A stretch of DNA of 64,000 bases. Source: Aquitalea magnusonii. GTDB lineage: Bacteria > Pseudomonadota > Gammaproteobacteria > Burkholderiales > Chromobacteriaceae. The stretch covers positions 4,030,001 through 4,094,000 of the forward strand of contig NZ_AP018823.1 in NCBI RefSeq assembly GCF_002217795.2, in the 5' to 3' direction. The position numbers and the translations under genes were made by a program. The notes below the pieces were generated by a model that was given only the letters and a program-made list of their open reading frames with translations, was not told where the DNA came from and did no database searches. Shown piece after piece: positions 18,929-35,276 of the stretch. Positions within the stretch are counted from its first letter, which is position 1. Every line of letters starts with the position of its first letter.

Positions 18929-20728
18929 TTACTTCTTGCGCTGCGGCGGCAGGTCCGTGCAGCTACCCTCGAATACTTCGGCGGCCATGCCGATGGATTC
19001 GCCCATGGTGGGGTGCGGGTGAATGGTCTTGGCGATGTCTTCGGCATCGCAGCCCATTTCGATGGCCAGGCAGATTTCACCAATCATGTCGCCGGCGTGC
19101 GGGCCGACAATGCCGCCACCAATCACCTGATGGGTAGCCGGATCGAAAATCAGCTTGGTGAAGCCTTCATCACGACCATTGGCAATGGCGCGACCGGACG
19201 CAGCCCACGGGAAGACGGATTTCTCCACCTTGATGCCCTGTTTCTTGGCTTCGTCTTCGGTCATGCCCACCCAGGCCACTTCCGGATCGGTATAGGCCAC
19301 ACCCGGAATCACGCGGGCATCGAAGAAGGCCTTGTGGTCAGCGCAGTTTTCTGCGGCAACGTGGCCTTCATGCACGCCCTTGTGCGCCAGCATCGGCTGA
19401 CCGACGATGTCACCAATGGCGTAGATGTGCGGCACATTGGTGCGCTGCTGCTTGTCCACCGGGATGAAACCGCGGTCAGTCACGGCCACACCGGCGTTTT
19501 CCGCACCAATCAGCTTGCCATTGGGCGCACGGCCGGTGGCATACAGCACCAGGTCGTAGCGTTGCGGTTCTTTCGGTGCCTGCTCGCCCTCGAAGGTGAC
19601 GTACACGCCGTCTTCCTTCGGCTCGACGGCAACGGTCTTGGTGTTCAGCATGATGTTGTCGAAGCGGTGGGCATTCCACTTCTGCCATACCTTGACCAGG
19701 TCACGGTCGGCACCCTGCATCAGGCCGTCCAGCATTTCCACCACGTCCAGGCGGGCGCCCAGCGTGGAGTAAACAGTACCCATTTCCAGACCGATGATGC
19801 CGCCACCGATGATCAGCATCTTTTCCGGCACGGCTTTCAGTTCCAGCGCGCCGGTGGAGTCCACCACACGCGGATCATCCGGAATGAACGGCAGCTTCAC
19901 CACGCGCGAACCGGCGGCGATGATGGCGTTCTTGAACTTGACGATGGTTTTCTCGCCGCTCTCTGCACGGCCGTTGCCGGTAGTGACCGACACTTCGATG
20001 TGATGCGGGTCGATGAAGCGGCCATTGCCACGTACGATTTGCACCTTGCGCGCCTTGGCCATGCCGGCCAGGCCACCGGTCAGCTTGCCGATGACCTTTT
20101 CCTTGTAGCCGCGCAACAGGTCGATATCCACTTCCGGCTTGCCGAACTTGATGCCGTTGGCAGCCAGATGGCTTACTTCGTCAATCACGGCTGCATTGTG
20201 CAGCAGGGCCTTGGACGGGATGCAGCCCACGTTCAGGCACACGCCACCCAGGGTGGAGTAACGCTCGACGATGACCACTTTCTGGCCCAGGTCGGCGGCG
20301 CGGAAGGCAGCGGAATAACCGCCAGGGCCACCGCCCAGTACCATCACGTCGCATTCGACATCGGCACCGCCCGCGTGGCTGGCGGCCACCGGGGCAGCCT
20401 GCGGAGCAAAACCGGCATCGGTGTGAGCAGAGGCCACACCGGTGGTTTCCAGCGGCTTGGCTTCTGCCGGGGCCGCGCTGGCGGCGGCAGCAGCTTCAAC
20501 GATGACGATCACGTCACCTTCGCTCACCTTGCTGCCCACGGCCACTTTGACTTCCTTCACCACACCGGCAGATTCCGCCGGCACTTCCATGGTGGCCTTG
20601 TCGGTTTCCAGGGTGATGAGGCTGTCATCCTTGCTCACCACATCGCCCGGCTTCACAAAGACTTCGATCACGTCCACATTGCTGTGGCCGCCGATATCCG
20701 GGACTTTCAGTTCAATCAGATTGCTCAT
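18929..20728 (-). CDS. lpdA: dihydrolipoyl dehydrogenase (E3) with an N-terminal lipoyl domain
   Basis: FAD flavoenzyme that reoxidises dihydrolipoamide in the pyruvate dehydrogenase complex, passing electrons to NAD+. 599 residues, about 120 longer than plain Lpd because of an N-terminal lipoyl domain (residues 1-80, lipoyl-Lys in [10 protein letters not shown]) and an Ala-rich linker. Then come the FAD-binding GGGPGGYSAAF, the redox disulfide CLNVGC, the NAD-binding GGGIIGLEMG, and the dimer-interface HPHPTMGES. This extra lipoyl domain is known from Neisseria and other betaproteobacteria. No ribosome-binding sequence precedes the ATG. The heptamer repeat element ends 5 nt upstream instead. 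Confidence 0.97.
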   Translation of the reverse strand: MSNLIELKVPDIGGHSNVDVIEVFVKPGDVVSKDDSLITLETDKATMEVPAESAGVVKEVKVAVGSKVSEGDVIVIVEAAAAASAAPAEAKPLETTGVASAHTDAGFAPQAAPVAASHAGGADVECDVMVLGGGPGGYSAAFRAADLGQKVVIVERYSTLGGVCLNVGCIPSKALLHNAAVIDEVSHLAANGIKFGKPEVDIDLLRGYKEKVIGKLTGGLAGMAKARKVQIVRGNGRFIDPHHIEVSVTTGNGRAESGEKTIVKFKNAIIAAGSRVVKLPFIPDDPRVVDSTGALELKAVPEKMLIIGGGIIGLEMGTVYSTLGARLDVVEMLDGLMQGADRDLVKVWQKWNAHRFDNIMLNTKTVAVEPKEDGVYVTFEGEQAPKEPQRYDLVLYATGRAPNGKLIGAENAGVAVTDRGFIPVDKQQRTNVPHIYAIGDIVGQPMLAHKGVHEGHVAAENCADHKAFFDARVIPGVAYTDPEVAWVGMTEDEAKKQGIKVEKSVFPWAASGRAIANGRDEGFTKLIFDPATHQVIGGGIVGPHAGDMIGEICLAIEMGCDAEDIAKTIHPHPTMGESIGMAAEVFEGSCTDLPPQRKK

Positions 20729-20733
20729 GGCTT

Positions 20734-20860
20734 TTGGGAGTGGGGAATGGCGAGTAGGGAGTTACTCCACCCGCCATCCACCACCCACTTCCTTTATCAG
20801 TTCGTTTTCCCGATGGGGAGCACCTGCCTGCAGCAAGCACGACTCCCCACTCCCTACTCA
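20734..20860 (-). repeat. heptamer-built inverted element at the aceF-lpd junction (copy A)
   Basis: An element of about 127 bp filling the 137-bp gap between aceF and lpd. One end is a run of GGGAGTG-like heptamers (20736-20763: GGGAGTG, GGGAATG, GCGAGTA, GGGAGTT). The other end carries the complementary form CTCCCCACTCCC (20842-20856 region). Between them is a C-rich arm able to fold back (ATGGCG with CGCCAT; GGAGT with ACTCC) and a TTCGTT centre shared with copy B. It stops exactly 5 nt before the lpd ATG. Confidence 0.85.
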
Positions 20861-20865
20861 CGATT

Positions 20866-22536
20866 TCAGAGGATCAGGCGACGCACGTCGGACAGCAGCT
20901 TGCCCAGATGCACGGTGAAGCGCGCGGCAGCCGCACCGTCGATCACGCGGTGATCGAAGGACAGCGACAGCGGGCACATCAGGCGCGGTGCGAATTCCTT
21001 GCCGTTCCATACCGGCTTGATCTGGCTCTTGCACACACCCAGGATGGCCACTTCCGGCGCATTCACGATCGGGGTGAAGCTGCTGCCACCGATACCACCC
21101 AGGCTGGAGATGGTGAAGGTGGCGCCTTGCATGTCGGTCGGCTTGAGCTTGCCTTCGCGGGCTTGCAGCGACAGCTCGGTCAGTTCCTTGGCGATCTGCT
21201 TGATGCCCTTCTGGTCGACGTTCTTGATGACCGGTACCACCAGGCCATTCGGCGTGTCGGCGGCAAAGCCGATGTGGTAATACTGCTTGAGCACCAGATT
21301 GTCGCCATCCAGCGAGCTGTTGAAGGTGGGGAATGCCTTCAGGGCTTCGGCAGCGGCCTTGATGATGAAGGCCAGCGGCGAAATCTTCAGGCCGGATTTT
21401 TCCCATTCCTTGCCGATGGTCTTGCGGAAGTCTTCCAGCTCGGTGATGTCGCACTCGTCGTTGAACGTGACGTGCGGGATCATCACCCAGTTGCGGCTGA
21501 GGTTGGCACCGGAAATCTTCTGGATGCGCGACAGCGGCTTGGTTTCGATCGGGCCGAACTTGGCGAAATCCACCTTCGGCCACGGCAGCAGGTCCAGACC
21601 CACACCGGAACCAGCAGCGGCGGCCGGGGCGGCAGCCACCGGGTTCTGCAGCACGCTCTTGACGAAGGCCTTCACGTCGGCGTCGATGATGCGACCCTTG
21701 CGGCCCGTACCCTTGACGCGGCCCAGGTCCACACCCAGTTCGCGGGCCAGACGGCGTACCGACGGACCGGCATGGGCCTTGGAGAAGCTGGCTTCGTTGA
21801 TGGCGGGCAGGCTGGCGCTGGCGGCAACCGGTGCAGCAGCGGCAGGCGCAGCGGCGACAGGAGCCGGCGCAGCGGCAGCCGGGGCCGGGGCCGGTGCTGC
21901 GGCAGGAGCGACCACCGGAGCAGCGGCAGCAGCAACAGCGCCTTCCACCACCACGATCAGGTCGCCCTGGCTTACCTTGCTGCCAACGGCAACCTTGACT
22001 TCAACTACCTTGCCAGCGGCAGTGGCCGGTACTTCCATGGTGGCCTTGTCGGTTTCCAGCGTGATCAGCGAATCGTCCACGCTGATCACGTCGCCCACCT
22101 TGACCGATACTTCGATCACGTCCACACCGTTGTGGCCGCCGATATCCGGCACCACGATGTCGATGCGACCGCTGGCAGCCGGTGCGGCAGCCGGTGCGGC
22201 AGGCGCTGCAACCGGTGCAGCTGCCGGAGCGGCGGCAACCGGGGCCGGTGCAACAGCAGCTGCCACGGCGGCCGGAGCCGGCGCGGCAGCGCTGGCGCCG
22301 ACTTCCAGGATGGCGATGACGTCGCCCTCGGAAATCTTGCCGCCAACAGCGACTTTCACTTCCTTGATGACACCGGCAGCTTCAGCCGGCACTTCCATGG
22401 TGGCCTTGTCGGTTTCCAGGGTGATCAGCGAGTCGTCCACCGCCACGGTCTGACCGGCGGTGATGAATACTTCGATGATGTCTACATTGCTGTGCCCACC
22501 GATGTCGGGCACTTTCAGTTCGATCAGATTGCTCAT
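20866..22536 (-). CDS. aceF: dihydrolipoyl acetyltransferase (E2 of pyruvate dehydrogenase)
   Basis: Core of the PDH complex, transferring acetyl from lipoyl-Lys to CoA. 556 residues from ATG 22536. There are two lipoyl domains (about 1-77 and 115-190, each with [10 protein letters not shown]), joined and followed by Ala/Pro-rich flexible linkers. Next come a peripheral-subunit-binding domain ([15 protein letters not shown], about 255) and the catalytic domain with the active-site [13 protein letters not shown] near the C-terminus. The same frame stays open upstream through the repeat element to a GTG at 22656, including an ATG at 22638 after GGGAG, so a 34-residue N-terminal extension cannot be excluded. 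Confidence 0.96.
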
Positions 22537-22541
22537 ATGTG

Positions 22542-22668
22542 TTGGGAGTGGGGAGTGGCGAGTGGGGAGTCCCCACGCCGCGCACTGTCCACTCACTACT
22601 CCATGAATTCGTTGGCCTGACTGAGCGGGGCCGGGCATCCACTCCCTACTCCCCACTCCCGTACTCCC
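22542..22668 (-). repeat. heptamer-built inverted element at the aceE-aceF junction (copy B)
   Basis: The same architecture and, with the same boundary rules, the same 127-bp length as the copy between aceF and lpd. Four heptamers, GGGAGTG, GGGAGTG, GCGAGTG, GGGAGTC (22544-22571), sit at the aceF side, beginning 5 nt before its ATG. The complementary series CCACTCC, CTACTCC, CCACTCC (22639-22660) sits at the aceE side. A third CCACTCACTACTCC block lies at 22589-22602. The middle shares the TTCGTT and CCTGA/CCCGA stretch with copy A. Confidence 0.85.
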
Positions 22669-22674
22669 GCTGGC

Positions 22675-25338
22675 TTACGCTTTCCAGCTAGGCAGCTTGT
22701 CGGTCTTGATGCCGTACTTGGCAATCGCTTCAGCCACCTTGGCAGCTTCGATCTTGCCTTCGCGGGCCAGGGCGGACAGGGCAGCCACGGCGACGTAGTG
22801 ACGGTCCACTTCGAAGAACTCGCGCAGCTTGGCGCGGCTGTCGGAGCGGCCGAAACCGTCGGTGCCCAGTACCACGTAGCGACCCGGTACGTATTCGCGA
22901 ATCTGGTCGGCGTAGTTGCGGATGTAGTCGGTAGCGGCGATCACCGGACCGCTGCGGCCTTCCAGTTGCTGCTCGACAAAGGACTTGCGGGCAGCTTCGG
23001 TCGGGTGCAGCAGGTTGAAGCGGGAAGCTTCCATGCCGTCACGACGCAGCTCGTTGAAGGAAGTCACGCTCCAGATGTCGGACGCGATGCCGAAGTCGTT
23101 GCGCAGCAGGTCTGCCGCGGCAATCACTTCACGCAGGATGGTGCCGGAGCCCATCAGCTGTACCTTCACCTTGGCGTCGCCGCCGTCCTTCAGCAGGTAC
23201 ATGCCCTTGATGATGCCCTGCTCGGCGCCTTGCGGCATGGCCGGGTGGGTGTAGTTCTCGTTCATCAGGGTGATGTAATAGAACACGTCTTCCTGCTCGG
23301 CATACATGCGGCGCAGGCCATCTTGCAGGATGACTGCCAGCTCGTAAGCGAAGGTCGGGTCGTAGGACACGCAGTTCGGGATCAGGCCAGCCTGGATGTG
23401 GCTGTGACCGTCTTCGTGCTGCAGGCCTTCACCGTTCAGGGTGGTACGACCGGCAGTGCCACCCAGCATGAAGCCACGGGCGCGCATGTCGCCAGCCGCC
23501 CAGGCCAGGTCACCGATACGCTGGAAACCGAACATCGAGTAGTAGATGTAGAACGGAATCATCGGGATGCCGTGGTTGGCGTAGCTGGTCGCTGCGGCAA
23601 TCCACGAAGACATCGCGCCCGGCTCGTTGATGCCTTCTTGCAGCATCTGGCCGTCTTTGGATTCCTTGTAGAACATCAGCTGGTCGGCATCCTGCGGTAC
23701 GTAGTTCTGACCCTGGGTGGACCAGATGCCGTACTGGCGGAACATGCCTTCCATACCGAAGGTGCGGGATTCATCCGGCACGATCGGCACGATCTGCTTG
23801 CTGATGTTCTTGTCTTTCAGCAGGGTGCCCAGCATGCGCACGAAGGCCATGGTGGTGGAGAACTCGCGCTCACCCGAATCACCCAGCAGGCTGTCGAACA
23901 CGTGCAGGCCCGGGATGGCCAGCGGGGCCTTCACCGGTTTGCGGGCCGGCAGGTAACCACCCAGCGCGGCGCGGCGTTCACGCATGTACTTCATTTCCGG
24001 GCTGTCATCAGCCGGCTTGTAGTACGGCACCTTCGGCAGGTCTTCGTCGGACACCGGAATACCGAAGCGGTCGCGGAATTTGCGCAGGCTTTCGATATCC
24101 ATCTTCTTGGCCTGGTGGGCAATGTTCTGCGCTTCGCCGGACGAACCCATGCCATAACCCTTGATGGTCTTGGCCAGGATCACGGTCGGACGGCCATTGG
24201 CATTGTGGGTGGCTTCGTAGTACGCGGCGTAGACCTTGTGCGGATCGTGGCCGCCACGGTTCAGCGCCCAGATCTCGTCGTCGGACATATTGGCCACCAT
24301 TTCGCGCAGCTCCGGGTACTTGCCGAAGAAGTGTTCGCGAACGTAGGCGCCGTCTTTGGATTTGAAGGTCTGGTAGTCGCCGTCCACGCATTCGTCCATG
24401 CGTTTCTTCAACAGGCCCTTGGTGTCCATGGCCAGCAGCGGATCCCAGCGGCTGCCCCAGATCACTTTCAGCACGTTCCAGCCGGAACCGCGGAAGTCGC
24501 CTTCCAGTTCCTGGATGATCTTGCCGTTGCCGCGTACCGGGCCGTCCAGGCGCTGCAGGTTGCAGTTGATGACGAAGATCAGGTTGTCCAGACCTTCGCG
24601 CGCGGCCAGGGCGATGGCACCCAGGGATTCCGGTTCGTCCATCTCGCCGTCACCGCAGAAGCACCATACCTTGCGACCCGGCGTGCGGGCCAGGCCACGG
24701 CTTTCCAGGTACTTGAGGAAGCGGGCCTGATAGATGGCCATCAGCGGGCCAAGACCCATGGATACGGTGGGGAACTGCCAGAAGTCGTCCATCAGCCACG
24801 GGTGCGGATAGGAGGACAGGCCGTTGCCGTCCACTTCCTGACGGAAGCTGTCCAGCTGTTCTTCGGTCAGGCGGCCTTCCAGGAAGGCGCGGGAATACAC
24901 GCCCGGCGCAATGTGGCCCTGGAAGTACACCAGATCGCCATCCTGCTCGTCGTTCGGCGCGCGCCAGAAATGGTTGAAACCTACGTCATACAAGGTGGCG
25001 GAGGACTGGAAGGACGCAATGTGACCACCCAGCTCCAGGTTTTTCTTGCCGGCACGCAGAACCAGTGCAGCGGCATTCCAGCGGTTGATGGAGCGGATGC
25101 GGTGCTCCATCTCGTGATTACCGGGGGATTTCTGTTCTTTGCCCACCGGGATGGTGTTCTGGTACGCGGTAGTCGCGTCGAAAGGCAGGTAAGCGCCACG
25201 GCGGCGGGTGCGCTCAACCATGGTTTCCAGCAGGAAGTGTGCGCGCTCGGAACCTTCGGTATCCAGAACCGACTCCAGCGCTTCAGTCCACTCCTGGGTT
25301 TCCAGGGGATCGATATCGTCAGGGAAGGTTGCAGCCAT
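22675..25338 (-). CDS. aceE: pyruvate dehydrogenase E1 component (homodimeric type)
   Basis: ThDP enzyme that decarboxylates pyruvate and acetylates the lipoyl groups of AceF. 887 residues, as in E. coli AceE. It shows the N-terminal NRWNAAALV and SFQSSATLYDVGFNHF regions, the ThDP/Mg motif GDGEMDEPES continuing to NCNLQRLDGPV (about 230-265), IKGYGMG, and GTAGRTTLNGEGLQHEDGH. The start is ATG 25338 with GAGGA about 8 nt upstream, a proper ribosome site, unlike the next two genes. First gene of aceE-aceF-lpd. Confidence 0.98.
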   Translation of the reverse strand: MAATFPDDIDPLETQEWTEALESVLDTEGSERAHFLLETMVERTRRRGAYLPFDATTAYQNTIPVGKEQKSPGNHEMEHRIRSINRWNAAALVLRAGKKNLELGGHIASFQSSATLYDVGFNHFWRAPNDEQDGDLVYFQGHIAPGVYSRAFLEGRLTEEQLDSFRQEVDGNGLSSYPHPWLMDDFWQFPTVSMGLGPLMAIYQARFLKYLESRGLARTPGRKVWCFCGDGEMDEPESLGAIALAAREGLDNLIFVINCNLQRLDGPVRGNGKIIQELEGDFRGSGWNVLKVIWGSRWDPLLAMDTKGLLKKRMDECVDGDYQTFKSKDGAYVREHFFGKYPELREMVANMSDDEIWALNRGGHDPHKVYAAYYEATHNANGRPTVILAKTIKGYGMGSSGEAQNIAHQAKKMDIESLRKFRDRFGIPVSDEDLPKVPYYKPADDSPEMKYMRERRAALGGYLPARKPVKAPLAIPGLHVFDSLLGDSGEREFSTTMAFVRMLGTLLKDKNISKQIVPIVPDESRTFGMEGMFRQYGIWSTQGQNYVPQDADQLMFYKESKDGQMLQEGINEPGAMSSWIAAATSYANHGIPMIPFYIYYSMFGFQRIGDLAWAAGDMRARGFMLGGTAGRTTLNGEGLQHEDGHSHIQAGLIPNCVSYDPTFAYELAVILQDGLRRMYAEQEDVFYYITLMNENYTHPAMPQGAEQGIIKGMYLLKDGGDAKVKVQLMGSGTILREVIAAADLLRNDFGIASDIWSVTSFNELRRDGMEASRFNLLHPTEAARKSFVEQQLEGRSGPVIAATDYIRNYADQIREYVPGRYVVLGTDGFGRSDSRAKLREFFEVDRHYVAVAALSALAREGKIEAAKVAEAIAKYGIKTDKLPSWKA

Positions 25339-35255: not shown

Positions 35256-35276
35256 CATCCATTCCCCACTCCCCCG
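35256..35276 (+). repeat. partial copy of the CCACTCC heptamer repeat
   Basis: CCATTCC and CCACTCC in tandem in the gap after rlmH, matching the units found in the PDH operon elements. Only about three degenerate units are present and there is no opposing arm. Confidence 0.4.

Follow-up and report, generated by a model that had tools for sequence, protein, structure and literature searches.

What fills both gene junctions of the pyruvate dehydrogenase (PDH) operon of Aquitalea magnusonii, and to which kind of element it belongs, is the question raised by this locus. The window, i.e. the whole stretch of 64,000 nucleotides that was analysed, is part of a genome assembled as a single contig of 4.85 Mb (G000). 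Three genes on its minus strand, in the order aceE-aceF-lpd, form the operon: aceE (pyruvate dehydrogenase E1; 22675..25338), aceF (E2; 20866..22536) and lpd (E3; 18929..20728), all delimited from the list of open reading frames (ORFs). The gap from the aceE stop to the aceF start is 138 nt (22537-22674), and that from the aceF stop to the lpd start is 137 nt (20729-20865). No promoter-like or terminator-like sites were found in 20600-22800.

Both gaps are occupied by elements with inverted heptamer arrays, which lie in the sense of the minus-strand genes. Element 1, at the aceE-aceF junction (22544..22668), consists of a G-rich 5' array (22639..22668), a 64-nt middle and a C-rich 3' array (22544..22574). 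Element 2, at the aceF-lpd junction (20736..20859), consists of a G-rich 5' array (20842..20859), a centre delimited by alignment (20773..20815), which contains AACGAA, AAAGGA and the start of a candidate leader ORF, and a C-rich 3' array (20736..20762). Read in sense, the G-rich heptamers of both elements begin 6 nt past the stop codon and the C-rich heptamers end 7 nt before the next ATG. The G-rich heptamers are tandem and intergenic, on the coding strand after the stop and on the non-coding strand before the start. The preliminary description had proposed GGGAGTG-type heptamers at one end of each gap with their complement at the other, a shared TTCGTT centre and outer 29 bases alike at about 26 positions. 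The heptamers and their complement were present in both gaps, as was the centre (AACGAA in sense), and the outer bases agreed at 27 of 29 positions (stretches from + strand 20734 and 22542).

The RNA of both spacers is predicted to fold more stably than shuffled sequences; that the elements must fold in the mRNA, as the preliminary description had it, is likewise a prediction. The predicted minimum free energies were -69.4 kcal/mol for the aceE-aceF spacer (z -3.9) and -60.9 kcal/mol for the aceF-lpd spacer (z -3.7), and none of 200 shuffles was as low in either case.

The heptamers recur in the genome. The strict 15-mer pattern GGGAGTRGGGARTRG gave 22 matches at 10 sites of G000, two of which are the PDH junctions, and the reversed control gave 0. 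When two mismatches were allowed, 69 matches were counted genome-wide versus 26 for the control, adding sites such as 3402353 and 4386453. Within the window alone, an 11-mer with two mismatches was counted 24 times at an expectation of 23.3, i.e. with no excess over chance; the evidence therefore lies in the arrangement and the genome-wide recurrence, not in counts of single heptamers. A lone GGGAGTGGGGAATGG, found by pattern search at 35259..35273 on the minus strand, showed no inverted partner and is separate from the PDH elements. Elsewhere in G000, the inverted elements that we read comprise one with a gene (3588271-3588693) and three without (near 726164, 3176976 and 4386453); several other arrays are one-sided. 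For all three gene-less elements, both neighbours were called on the strand on which the G-rich array comes first, one of them by a thin margin. As a separate observation, several nearly perfect GGGAGTG units, one-sided and with no inverted partner nearby, lie near 2935067, 3350330, 3652752 and 4237953 of the contig (G000:C1; L003, L007, L011 and L019). The strict pattern was present in 16 of 150 genomes, G000 included; G030 had 204 matches and G033 had 37.

About ten other sites of the genome, together with orthologous spacers in relatives (below), bear out a family of inverted, heptamer-built elements inside the operon. Local low-complexity sequence, for which the heptamers should occur nowhere else and the spacers of relatives should be unrelated, does not describe these data. 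Short tandemly repeated repetitive sequences of cyanobacteria such as Calothrix are also tandem heptamers, and the likeness to them had been rightly drawn.

The gene-bearing element of this genome has the same architecture. G000 contains a single PF05635 gene (Pfam E 1e-34), which encodes a four-helix-bundle S23 (23S-rRNA-intervening-sequence) protein; by sequence, its closest solved structure is 2gsc (PDB; XCC0516, E 9e-36). The gene lies between two genes that we take, from their sequences, to be gltB and gltD, with GGGAGTAGTGAATAGGGAGTAGGGAGTGGA on its 5' side and TTACTCTCCACTCCCGACTCCCCACTCCC on its 3' side. G001 and G004 share the gltB-gltD cassette, and G017 and G030 have one at this place with different arrays. 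No PF05635 gene was found in 7 of the 10 genus genomes. In three genus genomes (L226, L224 and L223), the PF05635 gene was 98.6-99.4% identical and the adjoining 600 nt of gltB 94.8-95.7% identical.

PF05635 genes were present in 11 of 65 genomes, four of the 65 having been picked for their heptamers, and in 62 of 397 genomes across the phylum, where 69 of the 95 match rows were examined and 26 weak or partial ones omitted. From a search with 16 rows, two below the cut-off (G030:C1 and G026) were likewise omitted. Within the family (f1), PF05635 was found in 6 of 12 heptamer-positive genomes versus 2 of 49 heptamer-negative genomes, one of these two being below the cut-off (Fisher p 4e-4, uncorrected for relatedness).

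The flanks of the 78 PF05635 loci, of which contig ends left 77, 76 or 75 for a given comparison, carry the same signature. Related genomes have insertion sites in common, so that their loci are not independent, and two loci of G102 have identical flanks. The best period was 7 in 61/77 upstream and 57/76 downstream flanks, versus 3/76 and 5/75 in control windows about 700 bp away. The median flank-to-flank complementarity was 18, compared to 9 both between flanks of different loci and in the control windows; it exceeded the highest control value (15) in 50 of 75 loci and did not in 25. An inverted pair spanning the PF05635 gene had period 7 in 38/78 loci and period 8 in 5, and periods of 5, 6 and 9 were found in 0. 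The array sequences vary from locus to locus, and loci that lack a clear flank signal exist (e.g. L285, L287, L289 and L291). Four cassettes at one shared site (L249, L261, L268 and L271) have period-8 arrays of the GGGGAGTA or GGGCAGTA type; the flanks of the fifth locus at this site (L273) are truncated.

The cassettes also lie in sense. Of the 63 loci for which an amino-acid-composition score gave two strand calls, 54 had both neighbours in the same direction as the PF05635 gene, versus 82 of 195 genes with two co-directional neighbours in a control of 400 kb of G219 (nominal p 1e-12, for non-independent loci and one control genome); within the window, 15 of 28 genes had two co-directional neighbours. 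A strand call by the longest ORF had given 41 same/same, 19 opposite/same, 7 opposite/opposite and 5 same/opposite, and was discarded in favour of the composition score because, in GC-rich genomes, it wrongly assigned neighbours such as gltB to the opposite strand.

The PDH elements share with these cassettes the inverted tandem heptamer arrays at both ends, and GGGAGTG/GGGAGTA occurs in both PDH elements and in the cassette of G000 itself. By eye, GGGAGTAGGGAGTGGA of the 5' array of element 1 is also the end of the 5' array of that cassette. A parallel case was seen by eye in G017, where both the aceE-aceF and the gltB-gltD junctions have GGGA-type arrays with GGTTCCC. Both PDH junctions lack a PF05635 gene, the sole match of the genome being elsewhere, and for this reason we term the elements gene-less relatives rather than cassettes. 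These comparisons lead us to a main reading, to which we assign a probability of about 0.6: the PDH elements belong, as members without a gene, to a family of intervening elements that in its gene-bearing form consists of a PF05635 gene between inverted heptamer arrays, and they would form a stem in the mRNA and couple the translation of the genes that follow. A common origin of the two forms, and any mobility, we infer.

Element 2 may retain a trace of the gene. At a like place before the 3' array, its centre (AAACGAACTGATAAAGGAAGTGGG-TGGT) can be aligned with AAACAAATTGAAAGATTAAGTGGGTTGGT, the last part of the S23 gene plus the sequence that follows it. In comparisons with three genus cassettes, 0 or 1 of 300 shuffles scored as high, as did 6, 0 and 1 of 2006 background windows taken from the 64-kb sequence. 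For element 1, no resemblance to the S23 gene end was seen, with 58/2006 background windows as high, and none between element 2 of G004 and the G000 cassette (180/2006); nor did the resemblance extend to g9 cassettes when the centre of element 2 was compared with them. The resemblance, noticed after the fact, is suggestive of descent of element 2 from such a gene end.

The best-surviving alternative holds that these are ordinary selfish or neutral heptamer repeats, made by slippage, whose inverted copies accumulate in tolerant operon gaps, so that the link to PF05635 reflects a shared tolerance of sites. The one-sided arrays of near-perfect units at other G000 sites would be expected from it, as would the change of element type at one junction between close relatives, and published work on the Xanthomonas and Nostoc repeats reports that no role was found for them (PMC4692102). 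Yet periodicity and pairing of the flanks set the PF05635 loci apart from control windows and are rare in 400 kb of G219, where the inverted-pair scan gave 0 and the motif search one gene-less element. The arrays moreover change in step at one site: at nuoC-nuoD, where the arrays of seven loci differ, the mean fit of a 5' array was 21.7 with its own partner versus 12.7 with those of other loci, and most 5' arrays favoured their own 3' array. Four other shared sites, at which most arrays are alike, gave slight or no differences (own/cross 16.0/13.5, 31.0/28.4, 24.4/24.9 and 19.3/17.3). Finally, the centre of element 2 is better kept than its arrays. Taken together, neutral repeats are an unlikely explanation. 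The near emptiness of the G219 sample indicates that gene-less copies can be rare; the one element in those 400 kb (L309:12512) is inverted and carries GGCAGTA, the heptamer of G219's own PF05635 cassette.

For element 2, orthologues with heptamers were found in five of the ten genus genomes (G000, G002, G004, G007 and G008), and a DNA search with the element retrieved, beyond these five, chiefly heptamer stretches. Its centre is identical to those of G002, G007 and G008 in 43/43 columns and to that of G004 in 42/44, whereas the arrays are identical to those of G004 in only 37/51 and 31/44 columns. Beside third positions in the first 147 nt of lpd (86-98%), the centre is unexceptional. Support from covariation is weak for element 2, with a covariation term of 0.28 kcal/mol: two pairs changed on both sides, a number reached by 69/500 shuffles, and 3 of 13 array pairs are broken in G004.

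Each element also contains a candidate leader ORF of 19 codons on the minus strand that starts with GTG at -56 and whose TGA overlaps the next start codon (ATGA). The candidate in element 1 (22533..22592), read from the sequence only, would end on the aceF ATG, and that in element 2 (20725..20784) on the lpd ATG. A putative Shine-Dalgarno sequence, AAAGGA (20790..20795, minus strand), lies 5 nt 5' of the GTG in element 2. A like ORF, with the same start and the same overlap with lpd, was found in G002, G007 and G004. For G008, a loss of 7 nt shifts the frame, so that the ORF either stops 17 nt into lpd or, when read from a different start, is fused in frame with lpd; in element 1 of G004, the ORF ends 2 nt before aceF. 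Immediately 5' of aceF and lpd, G000 has the C-rich array and no evident Shine-Dalgarno sequence, while many other family members have GGATGGAAAACC or similar at the equivalent place. Given this, and leader ORFs that end on start codons, coupled translation is the simplest account, and aceF and lpd are probably translated by coupling to the leader ORFs.

Another explanation would be a conserved, structured cis-regulatory leader that is selected in the PDH operon only and is unrelated to mobile or S23 elements. In its favour, many spacers of the family fold better than shuffled sequences, with z below -2 in 38/50 folded aceE-aceF spacers and 42/51 folded aceF-lpd spacers. Against a dedicated leader, no Rfam family reached the gathering score in 20400-23000 of the window (best E 0.16), the same heptamers stand at unrelated operons and the spacer sequence is replaced wholesale between species, so that we regard this explanation as improbable.

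The replacement is apparent from the junctions of relatives, which were counted for 54 (aceE-aceF) and 59 (aceF-lpd) of the 61 family genomes placed; G012, G018 and G021 were left out of the aceE-aceF count. At aceE-aceF, the heptamer type was found in only 2 of 10 genus genomes (G000 and G004). Element 2 is thus shared with relatives, although the type of element at a junction changes between close ones. In the aceF comparison, heptamer and non-heptamer species were intermixed, and no clustering of spacer type with the divergence of the flanking genes was seen in a genus tree that is poorly resolved. By eye, the aceE-aceF gaps of G017 and G030 (g9) contain GGGA-type arrays and their complement, which is the same kind of element with another heptamer. 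Many other spacers of the family consist of two G+C-rich hairpins and a short linker; they often begin with GTAGGG and have CCTACG or CTTACG close to their end. Of the eight g8 and g9 genomes counted, seven have an aceF-lpd gap of just 8-14 nt, and the aceE-aceF gap is 1 nt in G025 and G034. PDH junctions are thus often filled by exchangeable hairpin elements of two main kinds, one being the heptamer element.

The hairpin pattern of the GTAG spacer type was dispersed in 14 of 27 genomes tested, with at most 55 matches per genome and 0 in the control. In G038, G050, G060 and G019, among other family genomes, the REP-like hairpin is of the form GGGCGGAANNCC...GGNNTTCCGCC and frequently occurs as two opposed copies, again with at most 55 matches and none in the reversed control. 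The type-B centre word matched 1 to 8 times in each of 27 genomes and so formed no large dispersed family, and the whole type-B spacer of G001 retrieved only its orthologues, in 3 of 15 genomes. The comparison with REP elements made in the preliminary description fits the alternative GTAG..GGCGGA hairpin spacers and fits the heptamer type less well. That the heptamer elements themselves are REP/REPIN-like and moved by a Y1 (REP-associated) transposase, as the GTAG-type double hairpins at the same junctions and the GTAG and GGAG within the heptamer might suggest, is the least probable of the explanations considered, since no Y1 domain (PF01797) was matched in 10/10 genus genomes (one of them 61% complete) and the strict heptamer pair was absent beside 11 of the 12 PF01797 matches examined in other genomes, a single pair standing at the twelfth; this route was therefore set aside for the heptamer type.

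The PDH elements represent a real finding of a kind of repeat that has been described. In Xanthomonas and Nostoc, GGGAATC and GGGGA(C/T)T heptamers form convergent inverted pairs, of which two Xanthomonas genomes have 70 and 75 and Nostoc few, and favour the coding strand just past stops and the non-coding strand just before starts, according to the available part of PMC4692102. Those heptamers are, like the PDH arrays, G-rich and tandem, and form intergenic inverted pairs; they differ in having been studied as G-quadruplex repeats with no link to an S23 gene, the terms XCC0516 and 'hypothetical protein' being absent from the text available. The same source mentions the Calothrix repeats, which share the tandem heptamers; in its available part, inverted pairing and an S23 link are undescribed for them. 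GTAG-tagged REP/REPIN elements (PMC3733652, in part) are also small, intergenic, inverted and hairpin-forming, and the other PDH spacer type looks like them, whereas the heptamer arrays of the PDH elements are tandem and variable by locus, and the 10 genus genomes had no Y1 transposase domain.

A close parallel is the 23S rRNA intervening sequence of Coxiella burnetii, which, as far as the available part of PMC4990558 describes it, has a 28-bp terminal inverted repeat, is excised by RNase III and has heptameric repeats before S23p; by the same source, the S23 proteins of rRNA intervening sequences have no known function. The cassettes described here resemble it in the S23 four-helix-bundle gene, the terminal inverted repeat that would form a stem, the heptamers before the S23 start and the transcribed unit. 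In contrast, the rRNA intervening sequences lie within rRNA helices, where RNase III cutting has been tested (PMC4990558, in part), whereas the PDH elements have no S23 gene, lie between aceE, aceF and lpd, and have predicted stems. The association of S23 cassettes with heptamer arrays is testable and was not found in print: the open-licence literature, searched by the repeats and the protein rather than by the PDH operon, yielded no S23 genes outside rRNA joined with heptamer arrays and no such elements in PDH operons.

On the reading of the PDH elements as gene-less relatives of S23 cassettes, they would be the equivalent, in mRNA, of rRNA intervening sequences. The elements lie in sense between co-directional genes, with the G-rich array after the upstream stop and the C-rich array before the next start. 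The arrays would pair as a stem in the polycistronic RNA, as in the S23-bearing 23S rRNA intervening sequences, which are cut by RNase III. Each PDH element would moreover replace the translation start region of the next gene, and the short ORF would start inside it and end on the aceF or lpd start codon. By analogy, the stem could be a substrate of RNase III and could allow the three cistrons to differ in stability. More tentatively, S23 cassettes and gene-less satellites may constitute one class of mRNA intervening sequence, which would insert in sense into transcribed operon gaps, be cleaved by RNase III at its stem and spread through RNA with the help of the S23 protein (PF05635 resembles Avd of diversity-generating retroelements; PMC10053308, in part), and this class would be the source of bacterial heptamer repeats; we consider this possible but doubtful. 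Bacterial heptamer repeats, although known for decades, have no accepted source, and the association links them to S23 proteins. The signature (period 7, inverted, variable by locus, in sense within operons) is countable in Pseudomonadota, and in the PDH operon, as a concrete case, one can measure how such an element affects the output of the genes for three subunits.

A PDH junction of another composition was seen in G014. Its aceF-lpd gap (L198) is 504 nt long and contains an ORF, apparently a whole gene within the junction, which by eye resembles an acetyltransferase (GNAT).
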